Below are positions 28,361 to 44,365 of a stretch of 64,000 nucleotides of DNA, piece after piece (positions within the stretch are counted from its first letter, which is position 1; each line of letters begins with the position of its first letter). The translations under genes and the position numbers were made by a program. The stretch comes from Enterococcus mundtii (GTDB taxonomy: Bacteria > Bacillota > Bacilli > Lactobacillales > Enterococcaceae), in contig NZ_CP025473.1 of assembly GCF_003957375.1 (NCBI RefSeq), positions 310,001-374,000 of the forward strand, read 5' to 3'. The notes under the pieces are model-generated. The model did no database searches. It was not told the DNA's origin and saw only the letters and a list, made by a program, of their open reading frames with translations.

Positions 28361-28737
28361 CAACAGGGTATAGTCTATTGAACTCCTGATAATCATCCGA
28401 TAAGTCTACTTGAACATATTTTTGAACGAAACACGCCTTTATAAAAAAATATTCTCTCAGGTTTTAAACAAGACGTGAAAAAGAAAAAACAAATTTTTCG
28501 CTCCCCTATGAAAAAATTGTTTTTTTTTAAAAAATATAAAATGTTATTATTTCTAAAGTAAGAAATGTCCTTATAGGATTATTCTTGCATGTTTATTCTC
28601 GAAAACCTTCGTTTTTGATAATGACAATATGTTATTTATCTTCTTTAATAGGAAACCTAATTTAATCACTTTTTCAAGACATCTGATGCGATCGGATGTC
28701 TTTTTTTTTGTCTCCTTAAAAACGAAGATTTTTGAGA
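28361..28737. repeat. WxL leader block 1 (near-identical to 36691-37065)
   Basis: About 377 bp of non-coding sequence is almost identical to the block upstream of the second WxL operon. Shared landmarks include CTCCTGATAATCATCCGATA, ACGCCTTTATAAAAAAATAT, a TCCTTATAGGA dyad, and the hix-like sites and terminator described separately. This fills the gap 28268-28756. Confidence 0.9.
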
Positions 28738-28738
28738 C
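28596..28738. promoter_or_regulatory. Inverted hix-like sites bracketing a terminator, operon 1
   Basis: Site L (28596-28621) contains TCTCGAAAACCTTCG followed by TTTTTGATAA; site R, inverted at 28713-28738, is identical at 20 of 26 positions. Each is a quasi-palindrome of 12-bp halves around a central TT. The centres are 117 bp apart. A promoter-like pair (ATGACA, 17 bp, TTTAAT) lies just inside site L. The interval holds the terminator at 28677-28709. Confidence 0.7.
28677..28709 (+). terminator. Leader terminator of WxL operon 1
   Basis: AGACATCTGAT pairs with ATCGGATGTCT (11 bp, one G-T) around GCG, followed by nine T. It lies only about 50 nt upstream of the first gene, so operon transcripts starting upstream must read through it. 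Confidence 0.9.
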
Positions 28739-28756
28739 AAACCAAGGAGGAGGGAA

Positions 28757-29080
28757 ATGAAAAGGAAAAACACTCGTTGGCTTTTGATCGCTTTATTGAT
28801 CCTTTCATTCTTAACCAAACCAACACATGCACAAGAAATCCAACAAGTGGAAACAAATGGATCCATCGGCTTTACCGGTGTCTATGAACCGATCGGTTCA
28901 CCTGATCCGCTACCGCCTGAAACGATTGTCAAACCACCCCTATCCGAAGTGGCGAAACCAGGCGGATTGTTGCCACAAACCAATGAGGCAAGTTCTTTTT
29001 GGCCAGTATGGTTAGGAATGCTTCTTCTCAGTTTCGTGTTCCTTTTATGGAAACGAAAAAACAAACAGACACAAAAATAA
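28757..29080 (+). CDS. Small LPXTG-like surface protein (CscD-like), operon 1
   Basis: A 107-residue precursor with signal peptide ('WLLIALLILSFLTKPTHAQ'), a short conserved mature part ('SIGFTGVYEPIGSPDPLPPE') and a sorting signal 'LPQTNE' followed by a membrane helix and 'WKRKNKQTQK'. Asn replaces Gly in the LPXTG motif, as in the paralogues at 37.1 and 43.2 kb. Such small anchored proteins accompany WxL operons and may tether the complex to peptidoglycan. AAGGAGGAGGG precedes the ATG. First gene of operon 1. Confidence 0.88.
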   Translation: MKRKNTRWLLIALLILSFLTKPTHAQEIQQVETNGSIGFTGVYEPIGSPDPLPPETIVKPPLSEVAKPGGLLPQTNEASSFWPVWLGMLLLSFVFLLWKRKNKQTQK

Positions 29081-29106
29081 ACCAATAAGAAAGTAGGAAT
29101 TATCAC

Positions 29107-29919
29107 ATGAAATTAGTACGATTAGCGACCATTGCCGCATTGTCCACAACGATTTTAGCAGGAGGGGCTACAGCGGCCTTTGCCGAAGAAGCAAGAGAAG
29201 TCAAGACCGACGGTCAAATCCAATTCACCCCAGCAACAGAGGAAGACGGCGAGTTAGAGGTAATTCCTCCGGAAAGACCTGACAATGGTGGACCAGATGT
29301 AGAGATCAATCCAGAAGTGCCTGGAACAACAGGTCCCTTATCCATCGTGAAAGCTGCAACGATGAATTTCGGCTCACAAGTGATCTCAAACCAAGACCAA
29401 ACGTACAATATGGTGGCAGAAATGCAACAATTACGTGGAACAGAAGGAGACGAAAACAAAGTACCTTACGTTTCATTTGCTCAAGTACAAGATTTACGGG
29501 GAACCAATGCTGGTTGGGATCTACAAGTAAGCCTAAGTGATTTCACCTCAAACACACAAAACAATGTGTTAACAGGTGCCCAAATTGCTTTGATGGATCC
29601 AACGATTCAGTATGAAGGAAATAATCAAGCCAATGCACCTGAAGCACACGCAACTGGTTTGACCTTGATGCCAAATGGAGCAGCACGCTCAGTTATGACT
29701 GCAGCACAAAGCAAAGGTGCCGGTGCTTCTTCTGTTGTCTGGGGCGATCAAGCAGACCTAGATGCACAATTTGCGGATGAGAATCAAGAGATTGTCGAAA
29801 ACAAAGCGATCAAACTATCGATTCCAGGTGCGACTGCAAAAGACGCAACAACCTATACTTCTACTTTAACTTGGGAATTGACGACGACTCCGGGTGAGGA
29901 TGCAGGAGAAGACGCGTAA
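29107..29919 (+). CDS. Small WxL-domain surface protein (CscB-like), operon 1
   Basis: A 270-residue secreted protein with signal peptide ending 'AAFAEE', a proline-rich linker, and a C-terminal WxL domain marked by 'AGWDLQVSLSDF' and the final 'STLTWELTTTP'. WxL domains bind peptidoglycan non-covalently. It is paralogous to the proteins at 37.46 and 43.48 kb, sharing 'TMNFGSQVISNQDQTYNM'. It follows the LPXTG-like gene by 26 bp and is separated from the DUF916 gene by a terminator. Confidence 0.93.
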   Translation: MKLVRLATIAALSTTILAGGATAAFAEEAREVKTDGQIQFTPATEEDGELEVIPPERPDNGGPDVEINPEVPGTTGPLSIVKAATMNFGSQVISNQDQTYNMVAEMQQLRGTEGDENKVPYVSFAQVQDLRGTNAGWDLQVSLSDFTSNTQNNVLTGAQIALMDPTIQYEGNNQANAPEAHATGLTLMPNGAARSVMTAAQSKGAGASSVVWGDQADLDAQFADENQEIVENKAIKLSIPGATAKDATTYTSTLTWELTTTPGEDAGEDA

Positions 29920-29951
29920 GTTACTAAACGAAACTTGATGAGAAACTCTTG

Positions 29952-29988
29952 GCAGCGTCGCAATTCTTTTTGTGACGCTGTTTTTTTA
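29952..29988 (+). terminator. Intra-operon terminator/attenuator
   Basis: CAGCGTCGCA pairs with TGTGACGCTG (one G-T wobble), followed by seven T, between the small WxL and DUF916 genes. The same position holds a hairpin in all three operons. Confidence 0.82.
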
Positions 29989-30002
29989 AGAAAGGAGACT
30001 TT

Positions 30003-31061
30003 ATGTTGACCCAGTACCCTCTAAATCGTCAAAAAGCCACTTCGTGGCTCTATCCAGTAATTGCCTTGTTCTTGTTCTTTTTTCCAATCATAGGAAAAGC
30101 TGATGAAGGAACGTTAAACTTCCATGTCACGCCTGAATTCCCACAAAGTCAGATCGAAGGATCGGATCGCTACTTTGATTTGAATTTGAACCCTGGTCAA
30201 ACAGAGTCACTCACCTTGACCTTACAAAATGCGAGTAATGAACCGATTCGTATACAAGTCACTCCACATACCGCCTACACCAACGTTCATGGAGTTGTCG
30301 AGTATGGCAAAGATGCGACAGAGCCAGATAATACATTGTCTCACACATTGGATGCATTGATCGAACCCACCGACATCATAGAACTTGCGGGAAATGAAAC
30401 AAAGACTGTGACTGTTCCCATACATATGCCCACAGAATCCTTTGAAGGATTTCTTGCAGGTGGTTTGCGTGTTCAAGAAGTCAAAGAAGAACAAGAAGAA
30501 GCCGCAAGTACAGAAGAGGGTGTAGCGATCAAGAATGAATTTGCTTATGTGATCGGTGTCGTGATCAGTAATACGCGTGATTCGGTCCAGCCGGACCTAA
30601 ACTTAGTAGATGTTTTTGCGGATCAGTTGAACTATCGCAATGTGATCAGTGCGAACTTACAAAACACCACACCAACATTCATCAATCGTTTGGCTGTGGA
30701 AGCGAAGATCCAACGAGAAGGAGAAGAAGAAGTTCTTTATCAAGCCAACGAAGAGCAGATGCAGATGGCGCCAAATTCCAACTTCAATTTTCCGATTTCA
30801 CTAGAAGGGGATCGTTTCCAAGCAGGGAACTATGTTCTGACGTTAAAAGCTGTGTCTGGTGAAGAAGAATGGGAGTGGACACGTCCGTTTACGATCGATG
30901 GTGATCAAGCACGCGCGTTGAATCAACAAGATGTCACGATCGATACCAGTATCAACTGGTGGTTTATCGGAGCGAGCCTTTTGATCCTTGTTTTGTTTGC
31001 GATCATCATCTATTTGATTGTTCAAAAGAAACGAAGCACTGAGAAAGAACAACCAAACTAG
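30003..31061 (+). CDS. DUF916/DUF3324 WxL-interacting membrane protein (CscA-like), operon 1
   Basis: A 352-residue protein with signal peptide, N-terminal DUF916 ('YFDLNLNPGQTESLTLTLQN'), then DUF3324 ('LDVFADQLNYRNVISA' in the family, here 'VDVFADQLNYRNVISANLQN'), one C-terminal membrane helix ('GASLLILVLFAIIIYLIV') and a basic tail. Family members bind WxL proteins and the cell wall. The stretch 'MQMAPNSNFNFPISLEGDRF' is common to the three paralogues. It precedes the large WxL gene by 15 bp. Confidence 0.93.
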   Translation: MLTQYPLNRQKATSWLYPVIALFLFFFPIIGKADEGTLNFHVTPEFPQSQIEGSDRYFDLNLNPGQTESLTLTLQNASNEPIRIQVTPHTAYTNVHGVVEYGKDATEPDNTLSHTLDALIEPTDIIELAGNETKTVTVPIHMPTESFEGFLAGGLRVQEVKEEQEEAASTEEGVAIKNEFAYVIGVVISNTRDSVQPDLNLVDVFADQLNYRNVISANLQNTTPTFINRLAVEAKIQREGEEEVLYQANEEQMQMAPNSNFNFPISLEGDRFQAGNYVLTLKAVSGEEEWEWTRPFTIDGDQARALNQQDVTIDTSINWWFIGASLLILVLFAIIIYLIVQKKRSTEKEQPN

Positions 31062-31076
31062 GAGGAAAGAAGCCAA

Positions 31077-33550
31077 ATGAAGAGTAAGAAAATCAAAGGG
31101 ATGCTTGTATTGGGCGTGACTGTTTTAGCCCTGCAGGCAGTCTGCATGCCAGTAGGCATGGTTTATGCAGAAACGACAGCTAGTGAAGAAGAAGCACCAA
31201 AACAAGCAGCGCTTCCAACTGCGCCCAATCTTTTAGAAGCAAGTGAAGAAAAAGATCCTCGCTTTTTCTTTCAACGATCCCAGATGACAGGCACGGTCAA
31301 TGAGCCAATCAACGTAACGATTTCTTCTGATCAGGAAGTGTCTGAAGTACGGGTGAAATTACCAGAAGCCGCACAAGTACTCAACGAACAACTGCCAATC
31401 GGTGTTTCAATGGAACAAGATCAACACACTAAAGAGTGGTTGATCCAAGCGCAACGTGCTCAAAATACGTTTGTTCTTCCTTTATTATTTGAATCCGAAG
31501 GAAACTACGAATTGTCTGTGGAAGATGTAAAGGCAACTGTAGAGATCCAAGAACAGACAATCAATGATAACGTAAACCCACTCCAAGATTTGGAACAGTC
31601 TGAGGCTTCTTTAGAAAATAATGAATCAATTGAAGAAGATCATGTGAAAGATGATTCTTTGGAAGAGGCGAATACAAGTGAAGAAATTCCCAGTACAAAA
31701 TCAAGCGTAAATGTTTCTACGTGGGCACAATATGCGGCGGCAATCAACAATCGAAGTGTGACAGTAATTAATGTGACAGCTAACATCTCTGGAAATACTA
31801 CCTTGAATAATATCACTCGAAATCTGACTATCAATGGGAATGGTTTTACGATCAATTCTCAGAACCAATCCTATACTCTAGCTGCTGCAAATCTTGAATT
31901 AGCGGTTAGAAATGCAACGATTGTTTCTACTAGACGTTTGGACTCCGCAGTTTTTACTACAAATTCGAGTGCTGCTCTTGCTACTTTTCGATTTTCCGAT
32001 TTGACGTTCAATAGTCTCAATAGATTTGTAGGAACGAGTAATGGTTCACATGGCAGTGTCATAACAACAATCTTAGATGGAGGGAATTTTGACTTTTCAA
32101 TTCCTAGTACAAGTGAAAATTTCAATGCTGTTCTGGGGGGGTACGAAGAATTATAATTACAAATGACGCCAAAGTAATCTCACGTGGCCGACGCCTATCA
32201 ACTGCCCTATCAGCTCAAACAGATGCTCAAGCACAAGATATGACTTTTCAAATTGAAGAAGGATCTTCTCTTATTACCGATGCTTCGTTGGATGCAACAA
32301 CATATAATATTTTGGGAACTATAGAGGGAGCTAGACTACAGGGACATAGAAATGCAATTCCAATAATTATTAACTTGAGGGAAACTGGTTCCCTATATTT
32401 AAGCAATTCCAACAATAACTTTGATTTATTTGCAGGAAGTAGCAATGTTACTTTGAATATTTCGAAATATTCAACCTTTGATTTTTCTCAATTAAGTGGA
32501 AGGCGGTTAATTGAAAATAGAAACATCAATGTATATTTCGATTCAGAAAGTTTAGCGCTTTGGGATCTAGGACTACAAGAAGAAGAAAAAGCGTCAATGG
32601 TATTTTCTGATATTGAAGCAACTCTATCTGGTGTTAATGCGTCGATTATTGGTACCACAACGAATGACCGATTTCAAACACTTTACGACTCTTCTGGATT
32701 AGCTGCCTACTCCCGAATGAGCAATCGCCCGGTTGAAGAAATGACACGCTCCGTTATCGCAAAGTATTTGGATACCAATGGGAGTGAGATTGCAGATACT
32801 GAAGTGATCACGGGACTGCTCGGTGAGAATTATCTGACAAAAAGTAAACAGATTTCTGGTTATCAGCTGATCGAGAGACCTTCCAATGAATCAGGTCAAT
32901 TTTCCCGAGAGATGATTGAGGTTTCTTATATCTATGAGGAGGCACATGTTGCGCCAGTAGATCCTTTAGATCCAGAAGTCGAGGTCGATCCAGAAAACAA
33001 ACCCGAACTTCCTGAAGAGCAGGGACGCTTGAGTATCGACTTTGTTTCACAATTCAACTTTGGGACACAATCGATCTCGGCGACGGATCAAACGTATTTT
33101 GCCCAACCGCAACGGCTACTGAATCAAGATGGGACGGTCAATGAGACCGAAGAACGCCCCAACTATATCCAAGTCAGTGACCGTCGATCAGACACCGAAC
33201 GCCATGGCTGGCAATTAGCCGTGACACAAAATACACAATTTGAAAATGAAGCGAACCATCAGTTGACAGGTGCCCAATTGCGCTTGACGAACCAACAGCT
33301 AGCGACCGCACAAGACGGCAGTGCACCTGAACTCCAACAGACGAATCCATTGGCATTGATTCCCGGTGTGAAACGGGTCTTATTGATGGCTCAAGGGGAG
33401 GAAGGGCAAGGCACTTGGATCTATCGTTTCGGGGATCTTGATACGGCATCGGAAAGTGTGGCACTTACCGTACCCAAAGGAGCGACGCCCGAAGCAACAG
33501 CCTATAAAGCAACATTGACATGGGAATTAAGTGCCGTTCCTGGCAATTAA
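31077..33550 (+). pseudogene. Large WxL protein (CscC-like), frameshifted at a G7 tract
   Basis: The gene would encode about 824 residues: signal peptide, stalk, right-handed beta-helix-like region (about residues 220-360 'LTINGNGFTINSQNQ'), MucBP-like domain ('VIAKYLDTNGSEIADTEV'), and a WxL domain ('HGWQLAVTQ', 'LTWELSAVP'). At 32135-32141 there is a run of seven G; the first frame stops at 32154-32156, while the rest continues in another frame. One extra G gives an uninterrupted frame 'VLGGVRRIIITNDAK'. A homopolymer of this kind could allow phase variation by slippage, or this may be ordinary decay or an assembly error. Confidence 0.9.
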
Positions 33551-33551
33551 C

Positions 33552-33590
33552 AAAAAGGAGAAAGAGAGAGTTCTCTTTCTCCTTTTTCCT
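33552..33590 (+). terminator. Terminator of operon 1
   Basis: AAAAAGGAGAAAGAGA pairs with TCTCTTTCTCCTTTTT just after the large WxL stop. Confidence 0.85.
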
Positions 33591-33623
33591 TTTTAAAGAA
33601 TGACTGAACTGGAGGTGACACCT

Positions 33624-34799
33624 ATGCATACGCTCTTTTATCAACTGATCCAGAAAGCCGAAACTAAACGATGGTTTCTCCTTTTAGAACAATTTGAAGA
33701 ACGACAGACTGTGACCGCCAAAGAATTAGCCCGTCGGGCTGATTGCACATCCCGGACGATCCAAAAGGATATTAAGCAGTTGAAACAGTATTTCGAGAAA
33801 ACGATCCGTCTGCTAGGCAACGAGGATGGGTTTCATTTTTCTTTTCAAGAACCAACCATCTACCGGCAGAAAAAACAAGCACTGCTAAAAACCGAACCAT
33901 TGTTTTTCTTTGTGGATCAGTTAGTTCAAGGAAATAGCCAAACCAATCAAGAGTGGGAAGAATGGTTATCGCTCTCCCCGGCTCGCTTTGGGCGGATCAA
34001 ACGAAGACTGATTCACACGCTAGAAACGCAGTATCACGTGACCCTTTCGGGCAGAGACAATCAATTCCAAGGGACCGAGCCAGCCATTCGGCAATTGATG
34101 TATGATTTTTATTTCGGACTGCCGCTGTTGCCAAAAGGCATCAGAAGAAATTGCGCTTCTGACTCACTAAAAAGCGTACTCGTTCGGTCTACTGAATGGT
34201 TACTGGATCCATTACGATTGAAGCAGTGGCACCAAATTGCTTGTTGGCGAATGGTTCAAGGCAAACCATTGCCGCCCCAAAAGGGGCGCATACCAGTTGC
34301 TTTAGCGACAGCCTTTGATGCGCAAATCACGAGTTCGTTGCCGGTACAGGAAAAAGCAGCCTTATTTTTACTAAGCTTAAAGGGAGAACAATTCTTATCC
34401 CCTTTTTGGCAAAAGACTTTTATTCGTCAGTTTTCTTCGACGAGTGAGAAACATAAGCCAATAAAGGATGTCGATGATCTAACAGTCTCTTTCTTAGAAA
34501 CGATCGTTTCTTTACACTGTTTGTTCTTTCCCTTACCATACCCAGAAACAAAAGAAGGCGACTCGACAGAAGCGCTTGATCAGACAGCGCTCTTTGAGCA
34601 GACGAAACACAACTACTTCGCACAGAAAAAGTAATTGGCCCATTCAATACAATTGACTTTTCAGTTAACAGGAAGCAGTGCGTTACAAGAGTGGATCAAA
34701 AGGACGATTCGAAAGCAATTAGAAGAAATCGGCTACTGCCTTTTAGAAAATCGTTCGCTTACTCCTTATATTCGTCAGGCGATCGAACGAATCAGGTAG
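33624..34799 (+). pseudogene. Mga-like regulator with premature stop, operon 1
   Basis: The protein starts 'MHTLFYQLIQKAETKRWFLL' (GGAGGTGA ideally placed; the start matches the paralogue at 48.5 kb) with HTH 'ELARRADCTSRTIQKDIKQL'. TAA at 34632-34634 ends it after 336 codons, in 'YFAQKK*'. The frame continues for 55 codons to 34799 as 'IQLTFQLTGSSALQEWIKRT', aligning with the EIIB-like C-terminal domain of the 48.5-kb paralogue, where a lysine codon stands at the stop. A single A-to-T change explains this. The truncated form keeps the DNA-binding part but loses the C-terminal domain. Confidence 0.85.
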
Positions 34800-34850
34800 C
34801 GAATTTTTGACTGATTCACTACCCAAGCAATAAAGCAAAGGGGAAAGCTA

Positions 34851-35198
34851 ATGACAAAATTTGCGACAACTGAAGAATACATGAGGTATTTTCAAATATT
34901 ACTTGAGCAAGTAAAACCAGATAGAAATGAATTGCGCGATTACTTAACAGTGCAGTACGAAGAGTTAAAGCAATTGATTGCAGGTCTATCAGAAGAAACA
35001 TTTTGGCAAGTAAATCCTAAGATTCTAGGGATCGATGCTAAACTTGCGTTACTTAGTGAGTTGCTTCCATTTGAGGATTTTTCCAATGAAGAACTTATTC
35101 GATTCGTTGAGCAGGACTATCAATCGTACTACAAGGAATTGTGTGGGTATGACCTGAAAACGAAGACCCGACCTTCGATGTTTTTTACGATTCTTTAA
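34851..35198 (+). CDS. WxL-locus ~116-residue protein, copy 1 (unrecognised family)
   Basis: A 115-residue, predicted mostly helical cytoplasmic protein without signal peptide. It is clearly homologous to the proteins at 42162 and 51307: shared are 'LGIDAKLALLSELL' (family pattern I-D-A-K-hydrophobic) and 'YKELCGYD' followed by 'SMFF'. AAAGGGGAAAG precedes the ATG. Each copy is the last gene behind a WxL operon, and two follow Mga-like regulators directly. I do not recognise the family; a role as regulator partner or assembly factor is an inference from position. Confidence 0.8.
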   Translation: MTKFATTEEYMRYFQILLEQVKPDRNELRDYLTVQYEELKQLIAGLSEETFWQVNPKILGIDAKLALLSELLPFEDFSNEELIRFVEQDYQSYYKELCGYDLKTKTRPSMFFTIL

Positions 35199-35294
35199 AA
35201 TGAAATTTAATATGATATTTTAAGTTGTAAGGTCCAACACATTTTTGAAAATTTTCTTTTCCATCCAGAAAAAGAAAAATACAAATTATCTTTA

Positions 35295-35330
35295 GGGTCA
35301 AAAACTTTTGAGTTTTTGATCCTTTTTAAA
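35295..35330 (+). terminator. Terminator
   Basis: GGTCAAAAACT pairs with AGTTTTTGATCC followed by TTTTT. Similar GGTCAAAAA/TTTTTGATCC hairpins recur at 36.57 and 42.76 kb. Confidence 0.85.
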
Positions 35331-35391
35331 TTGCTTTTTTTATAGCTCCTTCAGCAGCTCAGTTAATTAGGTTCAGCTAAGTACTCAAGTT

Positions 35392-35691
35392 GTGGATTTT
35401 AAGCCAATTGTTAAAAGATATAGAGAAAACCTTTCACTTAACGGCAAAGGCAGCTACGTAGCCGAAAAGGCAGGATATTACACGGCTCCTACAGAAGTAT
35501 TCGCCAGAACCTTTGAGTTATATGTGAACGAAGCTGGATTGAATAGTATTTTTCTTAAATCAAAAGAGACTTATGCAACAAAAATTGAATATGCTTTATA
35601 TGATCAGAATATGCGTGATAAGCTCACAACTTTTTTTGACCGTGCCTTTCCGAATTTGAAAACGGCAGTCTTAAATAGACACGATTGTTAG
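35392..35691 (+). pseudogene. Fragment of a conjugative-element large protein (LPD-like)
   Basis: A 99-codon frame with a GTG but no ribosome binding site. 'YYTAPTEVFARTFELYVNEA' resembles the conserved W/Y-x-x-P-x-E-x-x-A-R-x-F-E-x-Y signature of large-polyvalent-protein domains in plasmid and ICE proteins. It is probably the 3' end of a deleted large gene. A further in-frame scrap, 'SDNLLPDLAKERIKATNNKF', lies near 35826-35892. Confidence 0.5.
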
Positions 35692-35892
35692 AATCTTTAA
35701 TTACAAATTTAACGAGCATGTATTAAATTGTGGTAGATTATTATTTTTCAAAAAAATAAACTAGAACAAAAGTACAAGAAAGAAGGACGATAATTTTAAT
35801 TTACTAAAAATAATTTACTGGATTCAGATAATCTACTTCCTGATTTAGCAAAAGAAAGGATAAAAGCTACAAATAATAAATTTGATTTTTAA

Positions 35893-35950
35893 ACAAAACG
35901 AACTAATTGCATACATATGACGCCTTATGTATACAATTAGTTCGTTTTGT
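35893..35950. promoter_or_regulatory. 25-bp palindromic operator of the DinJ/YafQ pair
   Basis: Arms 35893-35917 and 35926-35950 match at 24 of 25 positions (ACAAAACGAACTAATTG...), directly before a TATAAT box (35953-35958) and the antitoxin ribosome binding site. This is the expected arrangement for autorepression by the toxin-antitoxin complex. Confidence 0.8.
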
Positions 35951-35982
35951 GTTATAATAATCCTATAGAAGGAGGGGATATT

Positions 35983-36279
35983 ATGGCAACTATCAGAATT
36001 GATGATGACTTAAAACAAGATGCAGATAAAATGTTTGATGAAGTTGGAATGAATACATCCGTCGCAGTTAAAATATTTTTAACTAAATTTGTAAAAACTG
36101 GTAAATTCCCGTTTGATATTGAGACACTGTCTTACCAACCAACAAATGAAACTTTACAAGCTTTTAAAGAAACTGAAACCTTAATAGCACATAATGATCT
36201 AGTCAATAAGGAAGATTTAAACAGCTATTTTAGTAGAATGAAAAAAGAAGCCGTTGAGAAAGAGCATGCTGAATTATAA
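35983..36279 (+). CDS. RelB/DinJ family antitoxin
   Basis: A 98-residue ribbon-helix-helix protein starting 'MATIRIDDDLKQDADKMFDE' with 'GMNTSVAVKIFLTKFVKTG', the RelB/DinJ DNA-binding domain, and a C-terminal toxin-binding tail. GGAGGGG precedes the ATG at 35983. It overlaps the toxin gene by 14 nt, so expression is coupled. Base composition is more AT-rich than the surrounding WxL genes, suggesting separate acquisition. Confidence 0.88.
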   Translation: MATIRIDDDLKQDADKMFDEVGMNTSVAVKIFLTKFVKTGKFPFDIETLSYQPTNETLQAFKETETLIAHNDLVNKEDLNSYFSRMKKEAVEKEHAEL

Positions 36280-36550
36280 AACGACAACACGATTTGATAA
36301 AGATGTGAAAAAGTTGATTAAGCAAGGAAAGCCTATAAAAAAGTTACAACGTGCTATGGAACTACTTATTAATGAAGAAGAATTAGGAACTGAATATAAG
36401 CTTCACCCATTGGAACCTAAAAATCAAATTCCCAAACGTTGGGACATACACATAGGTGGCAGAAATAGTGATTGGGTTGTAGTTTTTTACTATTACGATA
36501 AAACAATTATTTTTGAAAGAACGGGTAGTCATTCTGATATATTTAGATAG
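36266..36550 (+). CDS. YafQ/RelE-family mRNA interferase toxin
   Basis: A 94-residue toxin starting 'MLNYKTTTRFDKDVKKLIKQ', with 'LGTEYKLHPL', 'RWDIHIGGRNSDW' and the terminal 'RTGSHSDIF'. The final His plus the upstream His/Asp residues are those used by YafQ for ribosome-dependent mRNA cleavage. It overlaps the antitoxin end. The residues look intact, so it is probably active. Confidence 0.88.
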   Translation: MLNYKTTTRFDKDVKKLIKQGKPIKKLQRAMELLINEEELGTEYKLHPLEPKNQIPKRWDIHIGGRNSDWVVVFYYYDKTIIFERTGSHSDIFR

Positions 36551-36564
36551 TTTAAAAAATAGAT

Positions 36565-36600
36565 GGGTCAGAAACTTTTTTAGTTTTTGATCCTTTTTCT
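36565..36600 (+). terminator. Terminator of toxin-antitoxin operon
   Basis: GGGTCAGAAACT and AGTTTTTGATCC form an imperfect stem followed by TTTTT. Confidence 0.75.
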
Positions 36601-36690
36601 GATTCTCACACTTTAGAACTTTTATCAGCTTACTTAATAAAACTTAGTTATATTTATATTAATTATTTCTTTATGATATTTAGATAGGTC

Positions 36691-37065
36691 TAACAGAGTA
36701 TAGTCTAATGAACTCCTGATAATCATCCGATAAGTCTACTTGAACTTGTTTTTAAACGAAACACGCCTTTATAAAAAAATATTCTCTCAGGTTTTAAACA
36801 AGACGTTAAAAAGAAAAAACAAATTTTTCGCTCCCCTATGAAAAAATTGTTTTTTTTAAAAAATATAAAATGTTATTATTTCTAAAGTAAGAAATGTCCT
36901 TATAGGATTATTCTTGCATGTTTATTCTCGAAAACCTTCGTTTTTGATAATGATAATATGTTATTTATCTTCTTTAATAGGAAACCTAATTTAATCACTT
37001 TTTCAAGACATCTGATGCGATCGGATGTCTTTTTTTCGTCTCCTTAAAAACGAAGATTTTCGAGA
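36691..37065. repeat. WxL leader block 2 (near-identical to 28361-28737)
   Basis: This 375-bp non-coding block matches leader block 1 with a handful of substitutions and 1-nt indels, whereas the downstream genes differ clearly. Non-coding sequence more conserved than coding sequence suggests recent gene conversion or strong constraint. It fills the gap 36601-37094. Confidence 0.9.
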
Positions 37066-37066
37066 A
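36925..37066. promoter_or_regulatory. Inverted hix-like sites bracketing a terminator, operon 2
   Basis: Site L (36925-36950) is identical to that of operon 1; site R (37041-37066, inverted) matches it at 22 of 26 positions, with the same TT centre. Centre spacing is about 116 bp. Changes relative to operon 1 increase the match between the two sites. Confidence 0.7.
37006..37036 (+). terminator. Leader terminator of WxL operon 2
   Basis: Same 11-bp stem AGACATCTGAT/ATCGGATGTCT with GCG loop as in operon 1, followed by seven T. Confidence 0.9.
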
Positions 37067-37094
37067 ATATAAGAAAAGTTATAGGGGGAGGGAT

Positions 37095-37448
37095 ATGAAA
37101 CAAAAAAAAAAATACATACTCCTTATAGGTATGTTACTGATTCAAATGTATACACCACTAGTTGTTCATGGGACAGAAGTACGTTCGGTAGAAACTGAAG
37201 GGACGATTGGTTTTACTGGCGTCTATGAAACACCAGGAACGCCAGAGCCAGCACCCGAAGTTGAAGTAAAACCAACCTTTCCCAAAGAAATTGCTCAAGC
37301 ACCATCAGAAATGACAAAGAGCGAGCATAAAAGATTACCGCAAACGAACGAGAGTCAGATGAATACTTGGAAAATATTGGGTATTCTGATCATCGTCGTT
37401 ACTCTTAGTTTTTGGAAACACAAAATGAAAAATAATAAAAGAAAGTAG
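37095..37448 (+). CDS. Small LPXTG-like surface protein (CscD-like), operon 2
   Basis: A 117-residue precursor with signal peptide ('YILLIGMLLIQMYTPLVVHG'), 'TIGFTGVYETPGTPEPAPEV', sorting motif 'LPQTNE', membrane helix and basic tail 'KHKMKNNKRK'. The spacer before the sorting motif is longer than in operons 1 and 3. AGGGGGAGGG precedes the ATG. First gene of operon 2, 12 bp before the small WxL gene. Confidence 0.88.
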   Translation: MKQKKKYILLIGMLLIQMYTPLVVHGTEVRSVETEGTIGFTGVYETPGTPEPAPEVEVKPTFPKEIAQAPSEMTKSEHKRLPQTNESQMNTWKILGILIIVVTLSFWKHKMKNNKRK

Positions 37449-37459
37449 GATTTAAATAC

Positions 37460-38293
37460 ATGAAATTCGTTAGATTAGCTACCATTGCAGCGTTAACATC
37501 CACCATTTTTGCCGGAGGCATCACAGCTTTCGCAGACGACACAACTGAAGAAACATCAAAAGAAGTACGTAACGTCACAACTGATGGAACGATTGAATTT
37601 ACACCAAATGAAGAGGAAGAGCTAGTTGTTATTCCACCAGAAGGTGGACCAGATGTAGACATCGAGCCTGAAGTGCCAGGAACAACAGGTCCGTTATCGA
37701 TCATGAAAGCTGTCACGATGAACTTTGGCTCACAAGTGATCTCGAATCAAGATCAAACCTACAATATGATCGCAGAAAAGCAACAAAAAGCGGGTACAAC
37801 AGGTGAAGAAAACAAAGTTCCTTATGTCAGTTTTGCACAAGTACAAGATGTTCGTGGAACGAATGCTGGTTGGGATTTGCAAGTACGCCTGACCGACTTT
37901 AAAGCAACGAGTACAACGGTGAATGATACATTGATCGGTGCAGAGATTTCATTGTTGGATCCAAGAATCCAGTATGAAGGAAACACGGCTGGAAATGCGC
38001 CAGGAGTGCATACAAGTGGATTGAAATTGATGCCAAATGCTTCTGCGGTATCCGTGATGACAGCTGAAAAAGATAAAGGTGCAGGGGTATCTTCCGTTGT
38101 TTGGGGGAACCAAGCAAATCTAGATGCGCAAGAGGCGGATCCAGAGACGGATGTAGTGACCAATGAGGCAATCCAATTATTCGTTCCTGGTAAGACAGCG
38201 AAAGATGCGACACAATATAAATCAACATTAACTTGGGAATTATCTAATACACCTGGTAGTAGCGGTGTAGAAGAAGAAAATGGCGAAGTATAA
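37460..38293 (+). CDS. Small WxL-domain surface protein (CscB-like), operon 2
   Basis: 277 residues: signal peptide 'MKFVRLATIAALTSTIFAGG', acidic/proline-rich linker, WxL signatures 'AGWDLQVRLTDF' and 'STLTWELSNTP'. It is the closest paralogue of the operon-1 protein. The domain attaches to the cell wall of Gram-positives, and the DUF916 protein that follows is its likely membrane partner. AGTAGG lies upstream of the ATG. Confidence 0.93.
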   Translation: MKFVRLATIAALTSTIFAGGITAFADDTTEETSKEVRNVTTDGTIEFTPNEEEELVVIPPEGGPDVDIEPEVPGTTGPLSIMKAVTMNFGSQVISNQDQTYNMIAEKQQKAGTTGEENKVPYVSFAQVQDVRGTNAGWDLQVRLTDFKATSTTVNDTLIGAEISLLDPRIQYEGNTAGNAPGVHTSGLKLMPNASAVSVMTAEKDKGAGVSSVVWGNQANLDAQEADPETDVVTNEAIQLFVPGKTAKDATQYKSTLTWELSNTPGSSGVEEENGEV

Positions 38294-38344
38294 TCCAGAT
38301 TTAGGATCGGTGGAAGGCAAGCTATTTTAGATTATAGAAACAAA

Positions 38345-38378
38345 TGACGTAGCGTTACAATTTTGTAGCGCTACTCTC
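38345..38378 (+). terminator. Intra-operon hairpin
   Basis: GTAGCG-TTACA pairs with TGTA-GCGCTAC, followed by a T-poor tail (TCTCTTT). It is the weaker counterpart of the hairpins at 29.95 and 44.32 kb. Confidence 0.55.
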
Positions 38379-38399
38379 TTTAAAGGAAGGGGTAAACGA

Positions 38400-39458
38400 A
38401 TGAAACAAGCAAGTACATATCGAAAAAAGAAAATCCAACAAGCGGGGATGGTACTGCTTCTATTATTGGTTAGTTTATTGGTACCGATGCGCGTGGGGGC
38501 AGAAGAAGGAACGTTGAATTTCTATGTAACACCGGAGTTCTCAGACAATCAAAAGTCAGGAAATGATCGTTATTTTCAATTAAATCTTGCGCCAGATGCG
38601 ACAGAAAAGTTGACATTGAAACTACAAAACGCCAATGCCGAAGCAAAGAAAATCAAAATTACGCCACATACTGCGTATACGAACGTGATGGGGGTCGTCG
38701 AATACGGACAAGACGCAGAAAAAGCAGATCCCACACTCCAGCATTCACTAGGTGAGTTGATCGAGCAACCCGAAATCATCGAGCTTGGTGGTAACGAAAC
38801 GAAAACGGTGACGCTAGATCTGAAGATGCCTAAAGAAGCATTCGACGGCTTCTTAGCTGGTGGCTTACGGATAGAAGAAGTCAAAGAAAATACAACTGAC
38901 GAAACAACTGATGAAGAAGGGGTCGCCATCCAGAATGAGTTTGCGTATATCATCGGTGTAGTTGTGAGCAACAAACAAGATGCTGTACAACCTGATTTAG
39001 AGTTGTTAGATGTTTTTGCCGATCAACTCAACTATCGCAATGTCATCAGTGCGAATCTACAAAACTTCACCCCAACATTTGTGAATCGCTTAGAAGTCGA
39101 AGCTACGGTACAAAAAGTGGGCGAAGAAGAAATTTTATACCAAGCCAGTCAAGAACAAATGCAAATGGCGCCAAACTCGAATTTCAACTTTCCGATTTCT
39201 TTAGAAGGCGATCGCTTTCGTAGTGGAGAGTATCTATTGAAAATGACGGCACGTTCTGGGAAAGAGGAATGGGAATGGGAACGGAAGTTTACGATCGATG
39301 CAGATGAAGCCCGAGCATTAAATCAAGCAGATGTCACGATCGATACAAGTATCAATTGGTGGATGATCGGAGCAATCAGTTTACTGATTTTACTGGCAGC
39401 AGTGATTCTTTATTTGCTAATCAAGCAAAAAAAACAATCCAAAAAGCAAGAGATGTAA
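38400..39458 (+). CDS. DUF916/DUF3324 WxL-interacting membrane protein (CscA-like), operon 2
   Basis: 352 residues with signal peptide ('GMVLLLLLVSLLVPMRVGA'), DUF916 ('YFQLNLAPDATEKLTLKLQN'), DUF3324 ('LDVFADQLNYRNVISANLQN') and a C-terminal helix 'MIGAISLLILLAAVILYLLI'. Same length as the operon-1 paralogue. AAAGGAAGG precedes the ATG. The large WxL gene follows after 14 bp. Confidence 0.93.
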   Translation: MKQASTYRKKKIQQAGMVLLLLLVSLLVPMRVGAEEGTLNFYVTPEFSDNQKSGNDRYFQLNLAPDATEKLTLKLQNANAEAKKIKITPHTAYTNVMGVVEYGQDAEKADPTLQHSLGELIEQPEIIELGGNETKTVTLDLKMPKEAFDGFLAGGLRIEEVKENTTDETTDEEGVAIQNEFAYIIGVVVSNKQDAVQPDLELLDVFADQLNYRNVISANLQNFTPTFVNRLEVEATVQKVGEEEILYQASQEQMQMAPNSNFNFPISLEGDRFRSGEYLLKMTARSGKEEWEWERKFTIDADEARALNQADVTIDTSINWWMIGAISLLILLAAVILYLLIKQKKQSKKQEM

Positions 39459-39472
39459 GGAGTGAAACAAGA

Positions 39473-42025
39473 ATGGTAAATATTCGTAAGAAAGTCGCGT
39501 TATGTGGTACCTTTCTTTTACTATGTCAAATAATGCCATTGTCCATAGGACAAATCTATGCGGAAACGAATGAAACTGTAGATGAAAAAAAAACTGTTCC
39601 GATGAATCAATCAGATCTAACAAATTTAGTTGAAGAGATAGATTTATCTGAACCTCGCTTTTCCTGGCATGAGCCACATAAGCAAGTGAATATGAATGAA
39701 GAAATGGAAATGACGATTTTTTCAGACAAAGAAGTTTCTGAAGTAAAGCTTACTGTACCGAATGAAGCAACTATTTTAGAAAAAAATCTGCCAGCAGGAA
39801 TATTCTTGAAAAGAGGCCCATCAGATCAAGAATGGGTACTTACTTCCTTGAAGGCACAAAACACCTTTTCACTTCCGATTACCTTTGAAGATGAAGGAAT
39901 GTTTGAATTAGTAGTAGATGATTCTGTTGCTACAATACAGGTCCTACAAGACAATGAAGATTCTACAGATGACTCGTTAAGTGATTCTGTTGAAGAAAAT
40001 AGTCAGGATGAAGGTTCGTTAGAAAATGATGATTACGAAGACACCCCGATTCAACGCAATAATGTTAGTGTTGGAAACTTCGCAAGTTTGCAGAGGGCGG
40101 TTTCAAATGCTGTGGCAAATACAGAAACGATTATAACAATAACCAACTCCTTTGCTTTTACCTCAAGAGTTAGTATTCCGCAAGGAAGAAACATTCGATT
40201 ACAAGCTACTAGTTCTCGAACATTAACTAATTCTGGGCCTCAGCAGCATTTTTTAGTAACGAATAGTCAATTGACTTTGAGTGACAATGTTATCCTTGAT
40301 GGGGGTGGAGTGAGAGTAACTGGAACTACAGGGTTATTCACACTAAATGGTGGAATTGTCCAGAATGGTAAGGCGTCTGATGGAGCGTCTATCGATATAA
40401 GTAGTAGTGCTCAGATGGTTATCAATAGAGGAACGATTAAGGATGCTGACTTTAATGCAATACAAATTTGGACAGGAACGCTTACGATGAATGGAGGCAC
40501 AATCTCTGGAGGATCTCGAGGAGTACGTGCAGTTTCGGGCGCTGCTGGGACATTTATTATGAATGGTGGAACAATTGAAGGCACAGGGGTAAGTTTATTA
40601 GGTACCGCAACGTCCATTATTAGAAATGGGGTAATAAGCAATTCAGAAACGAACGGTATATATATCGGTGGTACTAACACCAACCTAATAATAGAAGGAG
40701 GGATCATCGAGAACTCTGGTACTGAAGGGATCTTAATCGATTCAACTTCCACATCTGTTATCCAGAGGGGTGGAACAATAAAAGACTCAAAAGACAGCGG
40801 TATACGTATTACACAAGGTGTTTTTGAAATGAATGGTGGATCAATCATTGAAAATGAAGGGACTCATGGAGCGGGAATTTATGTCGAAGAATTAGGGACA
40901 ATCGATTTAACTAGAGGAGAGATTCGAAATAATCATGCCTCAATTGGTGGCGGAATTTATTTTGAATCACTAACAAATAATCTAAGAATCTCAAGTGCGG
41001 TAGACTTTAGTGGAAACCAATCCGACAATCACTATGCACCACCATTAAATGTAGAACAAGCATTTCCGAATATTTTATCGCGGTCAAGTTCTATTTCAGA
41101 GTATAATCATCCGTTAAATGGTTACGATATTGATTATGAAACAAGTAATCCTCAAATAAATACTTTGACAACAACTAGTAACTTAGAGAATGCTGGTAAG
41201 GTATTTTTAGACAATGAAGAATATAGCGGAGAAAGAAAAGTAATTGGAAATACCAATATAAATATTCAAGCCAAGCCCAATGAGGGCTACCGTTTTGTTT
41301 CCTGGGAAGTCGTATCTGGAACAGGCTCAAGAATAGCGGATACAACTTCAGAGTCCACGACGTTTACGATGGGGAGTTCTAATACGGTCATTCAAGCGAA
41401 CTATGAAGAAGAGTTGGCGATCGTAAGCCCAGTCGATCCTCTTGATCCAGAGACAGAAATTGATCCAGAAAATAAACCCCAGCTTCCTGAAGATCAGGGA
41501 CGTTTAAGTATCGATTTTGTCTCGCAATTCCACTTTGGTACGCAAGGTATCTCGGCGAGAGATCAAACTTATTTTGCCCAACCGCAACGGTTATTGAATG
41601 AAGATGGGACCATCAACGAGACAGAAGAACGACCGAACTATATCCAAGTCAGTGACCGTCGCTCAGATACAGAACGCCATGGCTGGCAATTAGCGGTTAC
41701 GCAAAAAACACAATTTGAAAATGAAGTAGGCCATCAGTTGACGGGTTCCCAACTGCGCCTAACGAACCAACAATTAGCTACTGCACAAGATGGTATAGCA
41801 CCTGAACTCCAACAGACCAATCCATTGGCATTGACTCCAGGTGTTAAACGGGTATTATTGATGGCTCAGGGTGATGAAGGGCAAGGAACTTGGATTTATC
41901 GCTTTGGCGATGAAGAAACAGCATCGGAGAGCGTGGCGCTTACGGTACCCAGAGGAGCAACTCCTGAGGCTACAACCTACAAAAGCACACTGACGTGGGA
42001 ATTGAGTGCTGTTCCTAGTAATTAA
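39473..42025 (+). CDS. Large WxL beta-helix surface protein (CscC-like), operon 2
   Basis: An 850-residue secreted protein. After the signal peptide ('VALCGTFLLLCQIMPLSIGQ') and acidic stalk comes a right-handed beta-helix (about residues 260-500) with repeated 'MNGGTI' and 'GGIIENSG' turns. An InlB B-repeat-like domain ('GYRFVSWEVVSGTG') and the WxL domain ('HGWQLAVTQ', 'LTWELSAVPSN') follow. The beta-helix suggests carbohydrate or adhesive binding. I start at 39473 (AAGGAG about 11 nt upstream, signal peptide directly after); a longer frame would overlap the previous gene by 100 bp. Intact, unlike its operon-1 paralogue, with which it shares nearly the whole C-terminal domain. Confidence 0.92.
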   Translation: MVNIRKKVALCGTFLLLCQIMPLSIGQIYAETNETVDEKKTVPMNQSDLTNLVEEIDLSEPRFSWHEPHKQVNMNEEMEMTIFSDKEVSEVKLTVPNEATILEKNLPAGIFLKRGPSDQEWVLTSLKAQNTFSLPITFEDEGMFELVVDDSVATIQVLQDNEDSTDDSLSDSVEENSQDEGSLENDDYEDTPIQRNNVSVGNFASLQRAVSNAVANTETIITITNSFAFTSRVSIPQGRNIRLQATSSRTLTNSGPQQHFLVTNSQLTLSDNVILDGGGVRVTGTTGLFTLNGGIVQNGKASDGASIDISSSAQMVINRGTIKDADFNAIQIWTGTLTMNGGTISGGSRGVRAVSGAAGTFIMNGGTIEGTGVSLLGTATSIIRNGVISNSETNGIYIGGTNTNLIIEGGIIENSGTEGILIDSTSTSVIQRGGTIKDSKDSGIRITQGVFEMNGGSIIENEGTHGAGIYVEELGTIDLTRGEIRNNHASIGGGIYFESLTNNLRISSAVDFSGNQSDNHYAPPLNVEQAFPNILSRSSSISEYNHPLNGYDIDYETSNPQINTLTTTSNLENAGKVFLDNEEYSGERKVIGNTNINIQAKPNEGYRFVSWEVVSGTGSRIADTTSESTTFTMGSSNTVIQANYEEELAIVSPVDPLDPETEIDPENKPQLPEDQGRLSIDFVSQFHFGTQGISARDQTYFAQPQRLLNEDGTINETEERPNYIQVSDRRSDTERHGWQLAVTQKTQFENEVGHQLTGSQLRLTNQQLATAQDGIAPELQQTNPLALTPGVKRVLLMAQGDEGQGTWIYRFGDEETASESVALTVPRGATPEATTYKSTLTWELSAVPSN

Positions 42026-42161
42026 AAAAGAGCTCTCTACATCTGTTGTTTCTTTAATGAAACATACTATCTACCAAAATGATCCACAAAATTAGGCATG
42101 ATTTCCTGTGGATCCATCAATAGATAAATTTTATACTGTCAATTAGAAAGGAGTCTACAAG

Positions 42162-42515
42162 ATGGAAATACCAATAACGAAGGATATTTATCTGCTTCAG
42201 TTGCAAGAAAGCATGCCACAAGATAAAAGGGAGACAAAAAAATTGAATGAGTACCTAAGGCAACAGTTCGAGCAACTGAATCAATTTATAAGTACGATTT
42301 CACCAGATAATTTTACGGAAAATTTCCCGAAGATCTTAGAGATAGATGCGAAATTAACACTAATGGCAGAATTGATTTGTTATGACTATAGCAAATTGCC
42401 AATACAAGAGATCCTTCGGATCGTTGAGACAGACTACCGTACGTACTTCAAGGAACTTTGCGGGAATGAACTGAGTACAAAAAATAACTATTCGATGGTA
42501 TTTAATGTAGTCTAA
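42162..42515 (+). CDS. WxL-locus ~116-residue protein, copy 2 (unrecognised family)
   Basis: 117 residues, homologous to the proteins at 34851 and 51307: 'LEIDAKLTLMAELI', 'EILRIVETDYRTYFKELCGN' and a C-terminal 'SMVFNVV'. AAAGGAG lies upstream of the ATG. Here it follows the large WxL gene directly with no Mga-like gene between, so association is with the WxL operon itself, not only with the regulator. Confidence 0.8.
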   Translation: MEIPITKDIYLLQLQESMPQDKRETKKLNEYLRQQFEQLNQFISTISPDNFTENFPKILEIDAKLTLMAELICYDYSKLPIQEILRIVETDYRTYFKELCGNELSTKNNYSMVFNVV

Positions 42516-42982
42516 AAATAAACTTGTAAAAGGGTTGTTTAGAAAAAATAATTTCTAGGCAATCTTTTTATATTTATATAATTTAAGCAACTTTCTTTTT
42601 TCATAGAATTATTTAACAAATCTATATTCAGTTAAACAATGCATTCAATAGACAACAGGAGTCCAACAGAGTATGCCCTGTTGGACTTTCTATTTAGCTG
42701 TTGAACAATTAAATTAGAAAATGACATCGAAGTTGAGCAGAAAAAATAAAAGGTAAAGGTCAAAAATCTTTAAGTTTTTGATCCTTACCTTTTATTTTTC
42801 TTGTGCGTTAATTATTCTCTCCCATTCATCCTGATGAATTCGTGATCTTATTTCTTCTCCAGGATTTATTTTCTAAATATGCATAACAAGGTGAAAATTG
42901 TGATTTTTAATTTTGAATAAATTATTATAAGATAATGAATATAAAAAAGGATGAAGGATAAGCCTTTTTTGTTCGCTAAAAA
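42516..42982. other. Intergenic region before WxL operon 3
   Basis: No gene supported. It holds a terminator with stem AGTCCAACAG/CTGTTGGACT (42660-42688), a second GGTCAAAAA/TTTTTGATCC hairpin (about 42757-42783), and an AAAAAAGG/CCTTTTTT hairpin (about 42945-42970). The first has the same ACAGAGTAT loop sequence that begins leader block 2, so it is a diverged relative of that block. A minus-strand scrap (42793-42873) could encode 'PGEEIRSRIHQDEWERIINA' but has no start. Confidence 0.6.
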
Positions 42983-43127
42983 TTCTAAAAAACAATCGTT
43001 TTTTAGAATGACGAGTACTTATGTATGCTCAGTCATCGAAACGCCAATTTAACAACATTTCTTTAGACATCTGATAAGTCCGGATGTCTATTTTTGTTGC
43101 ACACCCAAAAACGATCGTTTTTGAGAT
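42983..43127. promoter_or_regulatory. Inverted hix-like sites bracketing a terminator, operon 3
   Basis: Site L (42983-43008) is a near-perfect palindrome (TTCTAAAAAAC-4 nt-GTTTTTTAGAA). Site R (43102-43127, inverted) holds CAAAAACG-AT-CGTTTTTG. They agree at 19 of 26 positions and both have AT at the centre, where operons 1 and 2 have TT. Centre spacing is about 119 bp. A terminator with stem AGACATC-T-G (43065-43090) and TTTTT lies between them. Confidence 0.65.
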
Positions 43128-43149: not shown

Positions 43150-43464
43150 ATGCGAAAAACTATTGCTCTTATGATTAGTCTAATGTCCCTAATAATAGCA
43201 ATACAATTTCCACTGCAGGTGTATGGTACACAGGTCCAATCCGTCGAATCAGAAGGATCCATTGGATTTACAGGAACTTATGAACCAATCGGACCACCAG
43301 ATCCACCTCCCAGCACCAGCCCACAAAAGCCAGGAGACACTTTGCCGAAAACCAATATGATTGGTAGCTCACTTGGACTATGGATCGGCAGTTTCTTAGT
43401 GGGTGGTATTTTATTAGTTTTGGGGTACAAAAGAAGAAAAGCAACACAAAAAACAATTACATGA
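43150..43464 (+). CDS. Small LPXTG-like surface protein (CscD-like), operon 3
   Basis: 104 residues from the ATG at 43150 (AAAGGAGGAGGG 3-8 nt upstream). Signal peptide 'IALMISLMSLIIAIQFPLQV', conserved 'SIGFTGTYEPIGPPDPPP', sorting motif 'LPKTN', membrane helix and 'YKRRKATQK' tail. As in the other copies, Asn replaces Gly in the LPXTG motif. Confidence 0.88.
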   Translation: MRKTIALMISLMSLIIAIQFPLQVYGTQVQSVESEGSIGFTGTYEPIGPPDPPPSTSPQKPGDTLPKTNMIGSSLGLWIGSFLVGGILLVLGYKRRKATQKTIT

Positions 43465-43480
43465 AAGTAGGAATTTAAGC

Positions 43481-44275
43481 ATGAAATTTATTCGTTTAGC
43501 AACTGTAGCCGCATTATCAACAACGATTTTCGCAGGAGGAGTACAAGTCTTTGCTGAAGATACAGGCCAAGAGTCAAAAGAAGTACGTAAAACAACAACG
43601 ACCGGTCAGGTCACCTTCACTCCAAATATTGAAGACACAGTAGTAGAACCTGATCCTGAAGGTCCAGAGGTGACGATTCCACCAATTCCTGGTACAGGAC
43701 CACTAACTATTGCAACAGTTCCAACAATGAACTTTGGGACGAAAGTGATCTCAACTGCGGATGAACATTACAATATGATTGCGGAAATGCAACAGAAAGC
43801 CGGAACAACAGGCGAAGAAAACATGATTCCTTATATTAGTATGGCACAAGTTCAAGACACCCGCGGAACGAATGAAGGATGGGAACTGAGCGTGAGTTTA
43901 AGTGAGTTTCAAGCAGAAACTGATACCCTAAATAGTGTGTTAAAAGGTGCCCAAATCACGTTACTTGATCCTTCTCTTCGTTACAGTGTGAATGATGCAG
44001 ATCAGGCACCAACGATTCACGCAAGTGGTTTAGAGTTGATTCCAAATGAAGATGCCGTGCCGATCATGACGGCTGCTAACCAAAAGGGTGGCGGAACTTC
44101 TTCCGTTGTTTGGGGAGATCATGATGCGCTTGCAAAACAAGTGGAAGATGGGGTAGATGTCGTTGAAAATACGGCGATCCAACTGTTTGTTCCTGGCTCA
44201 ACCGCCAAAGATGCGGTGACGTATAGTTCAACATTGACATGGGAATTAGAACTAACACCTGAAAATGAGGTTTAA
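43481..44275 (+). CDS. Small WxL-domain surface protein (CscB-like), operon 3
   Basis: 264 residues: signal peptide 'MKFIRLATVAALSTTIFAGG', short linker, 'TMNFGTKVISTADEHYNMIA', WxL signatures 'EGWELSVSLSEF' and 'STLTWELELTP'. The most divergent of the three small WxL proteins. It follows the LPXTG-like gene by 16 bp. Confidence 0.93.
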   Translation: MKFIRLATVAALSTTIFAGGVQVFAEDTGQESKEVRKTTTTGQVTFTPNIEDTVVEPDPEGPEVTIPPIPGTGPLTIATVPTMNFGTKVISTADEHYNMIAEMQQKAGTTGEENMIPYISMAQVQDTRGTNEGWELSVSLSEFQAETDTLNSVLKGAQITLLDPSLRYSVNDADQAPTIHASGLELIPNEDAVPIMTAANQKGGGTSSVVWGDHDALAKQVEDGVDVVENTAIQLFVPGSTAKDAVTYSSTLTWELELTPENEV

Positions 44276-44314
44276 GAAGTAACCATTCCTATTTCCATGT
44301 TCCATTAGTCACTG

Positions 44315-44351
44315 GCAGCGTTACAGATTTCTGTGACGCTGCTTTTTTAGA
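44315..44351 (+). terminator. Intra-operon terminator/attenuator
   Basis: GCAGCGTTACAG pairs with CTGTGACGCTGC (one G-T wobble) and is followed by TTTTTT, in the same place as in operon 1. Confidence 0.82.
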
Positions 44352-44365
44352 AAGGATTATGACAA

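Follow-up and report, generated by a model that had tools for sequence, protein, structure and literature searches.

Analysis of a 64,000-nucleotide stretch of the Enterococcus mundtii genome (hereafter the window) suggests that several WxL operons are very probably governed by invertible terminators of the CwpV kind, run in trans by a serine invertase. In enterococci and their relatives, WxL complexes are found among the surface proteins. The sequence-only reading of the window had proposed an invertible terminator in front of each of its three WxL operons, all in the terminator-on orientation, and this proposal is supported by an inverted relative, a Gin-like recombinase gene and the co-occurrence of gene and sites. 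Comparison of sequences established the sites, their cores, the direction of the terminators, the recombinase gene adjacent to a switch, the co-occurrence and the inverted copy of the operon-3 switch; that the product of this gene is the catalyst, and that flipping affects expression, is what we infer from them.

Site pairs and terminators upstream of the WxL operons

All three WxL operons lie on the plus strand; a gene for a small protein comes first in each, and genes for WxL, WxL-interacting and further WxL proteins come after it. Operon 1 (28757-33550) encodes a small protein, a WxL protein, a WxL-interacting protein, a Pectate_lyase_5-type protein and another WxL protein. Operon 2 occupies 37095-42025 and operon 3 occupies 43150-48416, the first ATG with a ribosome-binding site in operon 3 being at 43150 and the mechanical ORF starting at 43084. 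Mga-like genes are found near the operons at 33600-34634 and 48478-49761.

A total of six hix-like sites of 26 bp each (12+2+12) were identified in the window as three inverted pairs. The left and right sites are located at 28596-28621 and 28713-28738 for operon 1, at 36925-36950 and 37041-37066 for operon 2 and at 42983-43008 and 43102-43127 for operon 3. The core is TT in operons 1 and 2 (read on the minus strand for the inverted right sites) and AT in both sites of operon 3, and the centre-to-centre spacing is 117, 116 and 119 bp, respectively. The sequence-only reading had placed the pairs at exactly these positions, with centres 116-119 bp apart and cores agreeing within each pair, and all of this was borne out. 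It had also matched the left site of operons 1 and 2 to Salmonella hix at 22 of 26 positions; a recount against hix gave the same number.

A half-site matrix scan of the window scored the six sites at 25.6-31.7, far above the next-best position (12.3), and when the window was simulated 20 times with an order-1 Markov model, the maximum reached 16.6 with a median of 11.5. The matrix was trained on the window sites and related switch sites and is in-sample for the window, so tests on other sequences carry more weight. Among the 22 intact pairs collected, which are not all independent, the core dinucleotide was identical within every pair (16 TT and 6 AT), a count on which it bears that the pattern for the family search itself fixed the second core base; the copies in G007 (61.6 kb), G008 (149 kb) and G046 were excluded as not intact. 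Inverted pairs, two half-sites around a 2-bp core and equal cores in both sites are the properties of Hin/Gin-type systems. An Rfam scan gave eight matches, all under the gathering score and none at the switches.

Between the sites of each pair, an intrinsic terminator on the plus strand faces the operon, as the sequence-only reading had stated for all three. These terminators are located at 28676-28709 (stem 28676-28702), 37005-37037 (stem 37005-37031) and 43064-43095 (stem 43064-43090), each stem being followed by a T-run, and fold towards operons 1, 2 and 3 with -13.8, -13.8 and -12.1 kcal/mol. Analysis of 17 folded copies revealed a terminator towards the operon in 15 as first read, and after in-silico reversal of the segment none was found in 14 of the 17. 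Facing the gene in just one of the two orientations is characteristic of cwpV-type invertible terminators. Covariation of the terminator stem went little beyond shuffles, with both-sided changes at one pair only; several measures were often matched by shuffles and a slide by -1 scored equally, and stem covariation was set aside as weak proof of the terminator.

Transcription probably starts from a promoter outside the segment, on the upstream side of the left site. Candidate extended -10 elements (TGTTATTAT), picked by eye, occur on the plus strand upstream of the left site at 28542-28550 for operon 1 and at 36871-36879 for operon 2, while a consensus scan upstream of operon 1 found no sigma-70 promoter match. 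The copy at C1:37.9 kb has TTGAAA-16-TATGAT upstream, a motif for which shuffling gives 1.4 expected matches. An internal promoter flipping with the segment, as had been suggested from the element ATGACA-17-TTTAAT, was rejected: in the alignment, the element is complete in operon 1 only and lost in more distant copies.

Orientation of switch copies and possible exchange among them

Use of the operon-3 switch as query revealed three E. mundtii relatives of the AT class, on pLDW-8, pPe10302 and pP6-6, together with weaker matches. The segment on pLDW-8 (33.7 kb) has the window orientation (87.3% direct identity), and on the E. mundtii plasmids pPe10302 and pP6-6 the segment is reversed from core to core. 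In pPe10302, both flanks are collinear with the window (left 81.8%, right 95.0%) and the segment between the cores is 91.5% identical as reverse complement versus 51.2% directly. The outer half-sites are in place and the inner half-sites are swapped, as expected from exchange inside the core. In the inverted state, only -1.5 kcal/mol is found towards the operon, and a terminator of -6.7 kcal/mol points away. The pPe10302 and pP6-6 records are 99.8% identical in this region and may represent one event. The comparison of orientation across related genomes thus found inversion of the segment between the sites for the AT (operon-3) class on two plasmids. The inverted copies were studied on plasmid records, the Pe103 and P6 chromosomes lying outside the comparison, recombinase content included, as did pLDW-8 92001-147076, pP6-4 1-27226, pP6-6 1-39226 and parts of other plasmids. 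None of the 16 intact TT pairs is inverted; operons 1 and 2 have the same kind of site, which suggests that the TT class would invert too. The objection raised earlier that 117 bp is short for Hin-like inversion loses weight, since a segment of 118 bp is inverted in a relative. With HU present, Hin is reported to make loops as small as roughly 100 bp (PMC3798978), so the length of 117 bp does not exclude inversion.

Overall, the terminator is directed towards the operon in 17 of the 22 intact pairs, with pP6-3 counted by its near-copy pP6-4 rather than folded; two pairs are inverted, two keep the usual orientation with a shortened hairpin (pQY082) and one has no terminator (G049). Both the second switch on pP6-6 and the switch on pPe10301 have the OFF orientation, which means that the state can differ between the switches of one strain. 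The strong OFF bias is no contradiction, since cwpV of Clostridioides difficile is reported ON in about 5% of cells in the laboratory (PMC2784873).

A few copies depart from the common arrangement. The two copies on pQY082 of E. mundtii QU 25 (L071 12941-13073 and L127 35733-35865) lack 10 bp of the terminator hairpin through a deletion and are perhaps permanently ON; this plasmid appears to hold the operon region twice, in opposite orientations. In G049, the pair without terminator (L122 8877-9019) precedes two genes, one small and the other Mga-like by eye. Contig 17 of G046 stops inside a switch, just before the expected left site (end of L077), which could be due to repeats or mixed orientation. 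Decayed switches were found in G008 (L044, around 5987) and G007 (L042, around 2600), one with a right site only and the other lacking both 1 bp of the left site and an intact first gene. A WxL operon on pPe10302 (L131 7530-7949) has no upstream site scoring 12 or more, so the switch is not present at every WxL operon. The G047 switch was suspected from its half-site types to be inverted, and this was rejected: its segment is not homologous, and a terminator of -8.6 kcal/mol faces the WxL gene.

Comparison of 13 copies revealed that upstream regions and operons combine independently and that homology often breaks at the outer site edges. Within this set, an AT copy (3 of 13) has flanks in common with other AT copies and with no TT copy. 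Breaks at the site edges would fit either site-specific exchange between replicons or homologous recombination within the conserved switch. The restriction of AT flanks to AT copies favours site-specific exchange, albeit with few copies.

A Gin-like recombinase gene and its association with the sites

Two further switches were identified in the same genome, at C1:37866-38013 and C2:43727-43927, giving five copies in total. The 58-kb contig C2 is probably a plasmid, and its switch looks identical, over the stretch compared, to the copy on the E. mundtii plasmid pPe10301. The switch at C1:37866-38013 precedes further genes, of WxL type by position, and lies 123 bp downstream of a gene for a Gin-like serine recombinase of 192 aa (C1:37169-37747), which is outside the window. 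Searching the genome for a Hin/Gin-like recombinase, as had been suggested, thus found such a gene beside a switch, and this gene elsewhere in the genome is likely the invertase gene. Among solved structures, its product scores best against Gin (118.5 bits) and slightly lower against gamma-delta resolvase (111.6 bits), scores too close to tell an invertase from a resolvase by sequence. The best-scoring NCBIfam model is XisF (90.7, cut-off 375), and the Mpi model scores 78.5 bits against a cut-off of 272, which does not make the protein an Mpi equivalog. The associated enzyme is a serine recombinase, which sets the system apart from that of the tyrosine recombinase RecV.

Eight Resolvase-domain matches were found in the genome, and a hix-like site is present only in the 3.4-kb locus of C1:37169-37747, where the best site score is 35.0 as compared with at most 9.5 at the other seven. 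The sequence-only reading held that the window contains no Hin-like gene; this stands in that the window's own recombinase is Sin-type, but a serine recombinase does exist there, encoded on the minus strand at 51722-52357 (Sin/Tn552-type). This protein scores 295.7 bits against Sin (2r0q) and belongs to the Sin type, and no hix-like site occurs in the 3.4 kb around its gene (best score 3.9). Being close to Sin and having no such site nearby, it was rejected as an invertase candidate. Its gene directly follows a DUF7006 gene downstream of operon 3, and related recombinase genes also occur 3' of WxL operons on pP6-4 and pLDW-8.

The Gin-like recombinase was found at 72-100% identity in eight of 105 family genomes, and two more genomes have it at 58 and 62%. 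The exact paired-site pattern occurs in six of the eight family genomes with the recombinase and in none of the 97 others (Fisher, 1.7e-8), counts that are less independent than they look, as the genomes are related. Out of sample, the paired pattern was found in five of 395 order genomes, all among recombinase carriers, and a backward control pattern had no match in the 105 family genomes or the 395 order genomes. BLAST added a complete pair in E. innesii (G048) and an incomplete one in G046, whose contig ends before the left site; a further BLAST match in G032 had no recombination site. A site pair adjoins the recombinase gene in the source genome, in G007 and in G047, where a 77.6% identical recombinase gene lies beside another site pair. 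The recombinases of G046, G048, G049 and G050 (72-77% identity) have no site within 400 bp upstream, and the pairs are elsewhere in these genomes. Among PLSDB plasmids, the recombinase was found on pLDW-8 only (97%). The viral contigs had no site pair (TT-only pattern) and no relative of the recombinase, the phage records had no switch match, and the G047 switch had no match among plasmids.

More distant homologues (<70% identity) extend the association. Among the 26 examined of 29 (G251, G361 and G388 being left out), 22 have a site scoring at least 13 within 400 bp upstream and none has one downstream; random 400-bp windows reached a score of 13 in 80 of 3000 cases. The distance from the centre of these upstream sites to the match start is 136-167 bp. 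The four homologues under the threshold are L087 (12.5), L093 (10.3), L085 (8.4) and L098 (-0.3); L085 has a better site about 460 bp upstream and L098 still has a palindrome of similar kind. The palindromes are read as putative recognition sites of this recombinase group. In two homologue loci, inverted sites lie further apart. L086 (739-4698, G296) has them 3.9 kb apart around the recombinase homologue, the segment containing ORFs that resemble transposition genes by look and lying between two BspA-like repeat genes. In L084 (6105-9286, G073) they are 3.2 kb apart next to the homologue and enclose genes for small proteins that look secreted; a larger segment may be invertible here.

Proposed mechanism, alternatives and known systems

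In the mechanism proposed here, a small Hin/Gin-like serine recombinase would recombine the two 26-bp sites of each pair, and the 116-119-bp segment between the cores would act through its intrinsic terminator, with no conserved promoter. In the window orientation, the terminator would separate the promoter from the operon (OFF). Strand exchange at the 2-bp cores would flip the segment, the T-run would no longer follow the hairpin towards the operon, and read-through would result (ON). One recombinase, that of C1:37169-37747, probably acts in trans on all five copies in the genome.

Another recombinase of the cell might catalyse the inversion, with the neighbouring Gin-like enzyme serving other purposes. 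The genome does have eight Resolvase-domain matches, and the Pe103 and P6 chromosomes were outside the comparison, but this is improbable given that hix-like sites occur at the C1:37169-37747 locus only, that pairs are restricted to genomes with the Gin-like gene and that homologues of this enzyme have the same site type. A role of the arms as RNA is very unlikely. The arms would pair in the leader and antitermination would relieve the terminator, DNA inversion being rare or incidental; this would suit the complementarity of left and right arms over about 20 nt, the constant terminator direction in most copies and the core changes matched on both sides, which pairing would also want. Against it, transcription reaches the right arm only once it has passed the terminator, both arms are palindromes in their own right, many copies retain a mismatch (ACC/ATC) of left and right arm next to the core, an inverted natural copy exists, and homologous recombinases have single, unpaired sites.

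That the sites serve mainly for exchange between replicons, reassorting upstream regions and operons with inversion as a by-product, is likewise very unlikely. The breaks at the outer site edges in the 13 copies and the independent combination of upstream and downstream parts within the TT class speak for it; against it, homologous recombination inside the conserved switch yields the same breaks, and the conserved directional terminator would be left unexplained. We regard it as extremely improbable that a regulator, for instance one of the Mga-like proteins, binds the palindromes. The genes at 33600-34634 and 48478-49761, and similar-looking genes (by eye) preceding the switches of E. innesii, G050 and G008, point in that direction, but matched cores, an inverted copy with exchanged half-sites and sites upstream of recombinase genes would be unexplained.

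The proposed serine-recombinase terminator switch resembles several known systems. Hin/Gin/Pin serine invertases likewise have palindromic 26-bp sites with a 2-bp core in inverted pairs, and Gin is the best solved relative. Hin flips a longer segment with its own gene inside; the enterococcal segment is shorter and the recombinase gene lies outside it. In Mpi of Bacteroides fragilis, one serine recombinase flips many short dispersed switches of surface structures, as proposed here for several dispersed switches. Mpi flips promoters, whereas the enterococcal segment carries a terminator, and the score against the Mpi model is far below its cut-off. Hin uses a Fis-bound enhancer (PMC3798978). 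The cwpV switch of C. difficile has a 195-bp segment between inverted repeats with a cell-wall protein downstream, a promoter upstream and outside the segment, a terminator that forms in the OFF orientation and a recombinase gene away from the switch (PMC2784873). The short segment between inverted repeats, the OFF-orientation terminator, the downstream surface gene and a recombinase gene away from the switch are shared, unlike the serine recombinase, the 116-119-bp segment and the presence of at least five such switches in one genome. RecV is a tyrosine recombinase, and one recombinase serves more than one switch in C. difficile (PMC5386303). The same source describes the flg switch as a 154-bp invertible leader segment found by aligning an inverted strain, with a tyrosine recombinase and an OFF state not explained by an intrinsic terminator (PMC5386303). 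Detection by alignment with an inverted strain and one recombinase for several switches (proposed here) agree with that account, and the intrinsic terminator and serine recombinase differ from it.

Switching of WxL operons by inversion had no report in a title and abstract search of the literature, a coverage that leaves most subscription journals outside. C. difficile has invertible terminators that are worked by a tyrosine recombinase, and the serine version, if true, would be an independent solution. A broader possibility, which we put forward tentatively and consider doubtful, is that one trans-acting serine invertase sets several enterococcal WxL operons ON or OFF independently, on chromosome and plasmids, and that the same sites reassort upstream regions and operons between replicons within the TT or the AT class, so that the coat would be combinatorial and transferable. 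Having two core classes allows specificity to be put to a direct test. If the proposed mechanism is true, a chromosomal enzyme would control plasmid operons, and a heritable, reversible switch at each operon would predict clonal mixtures of cells with different coats.
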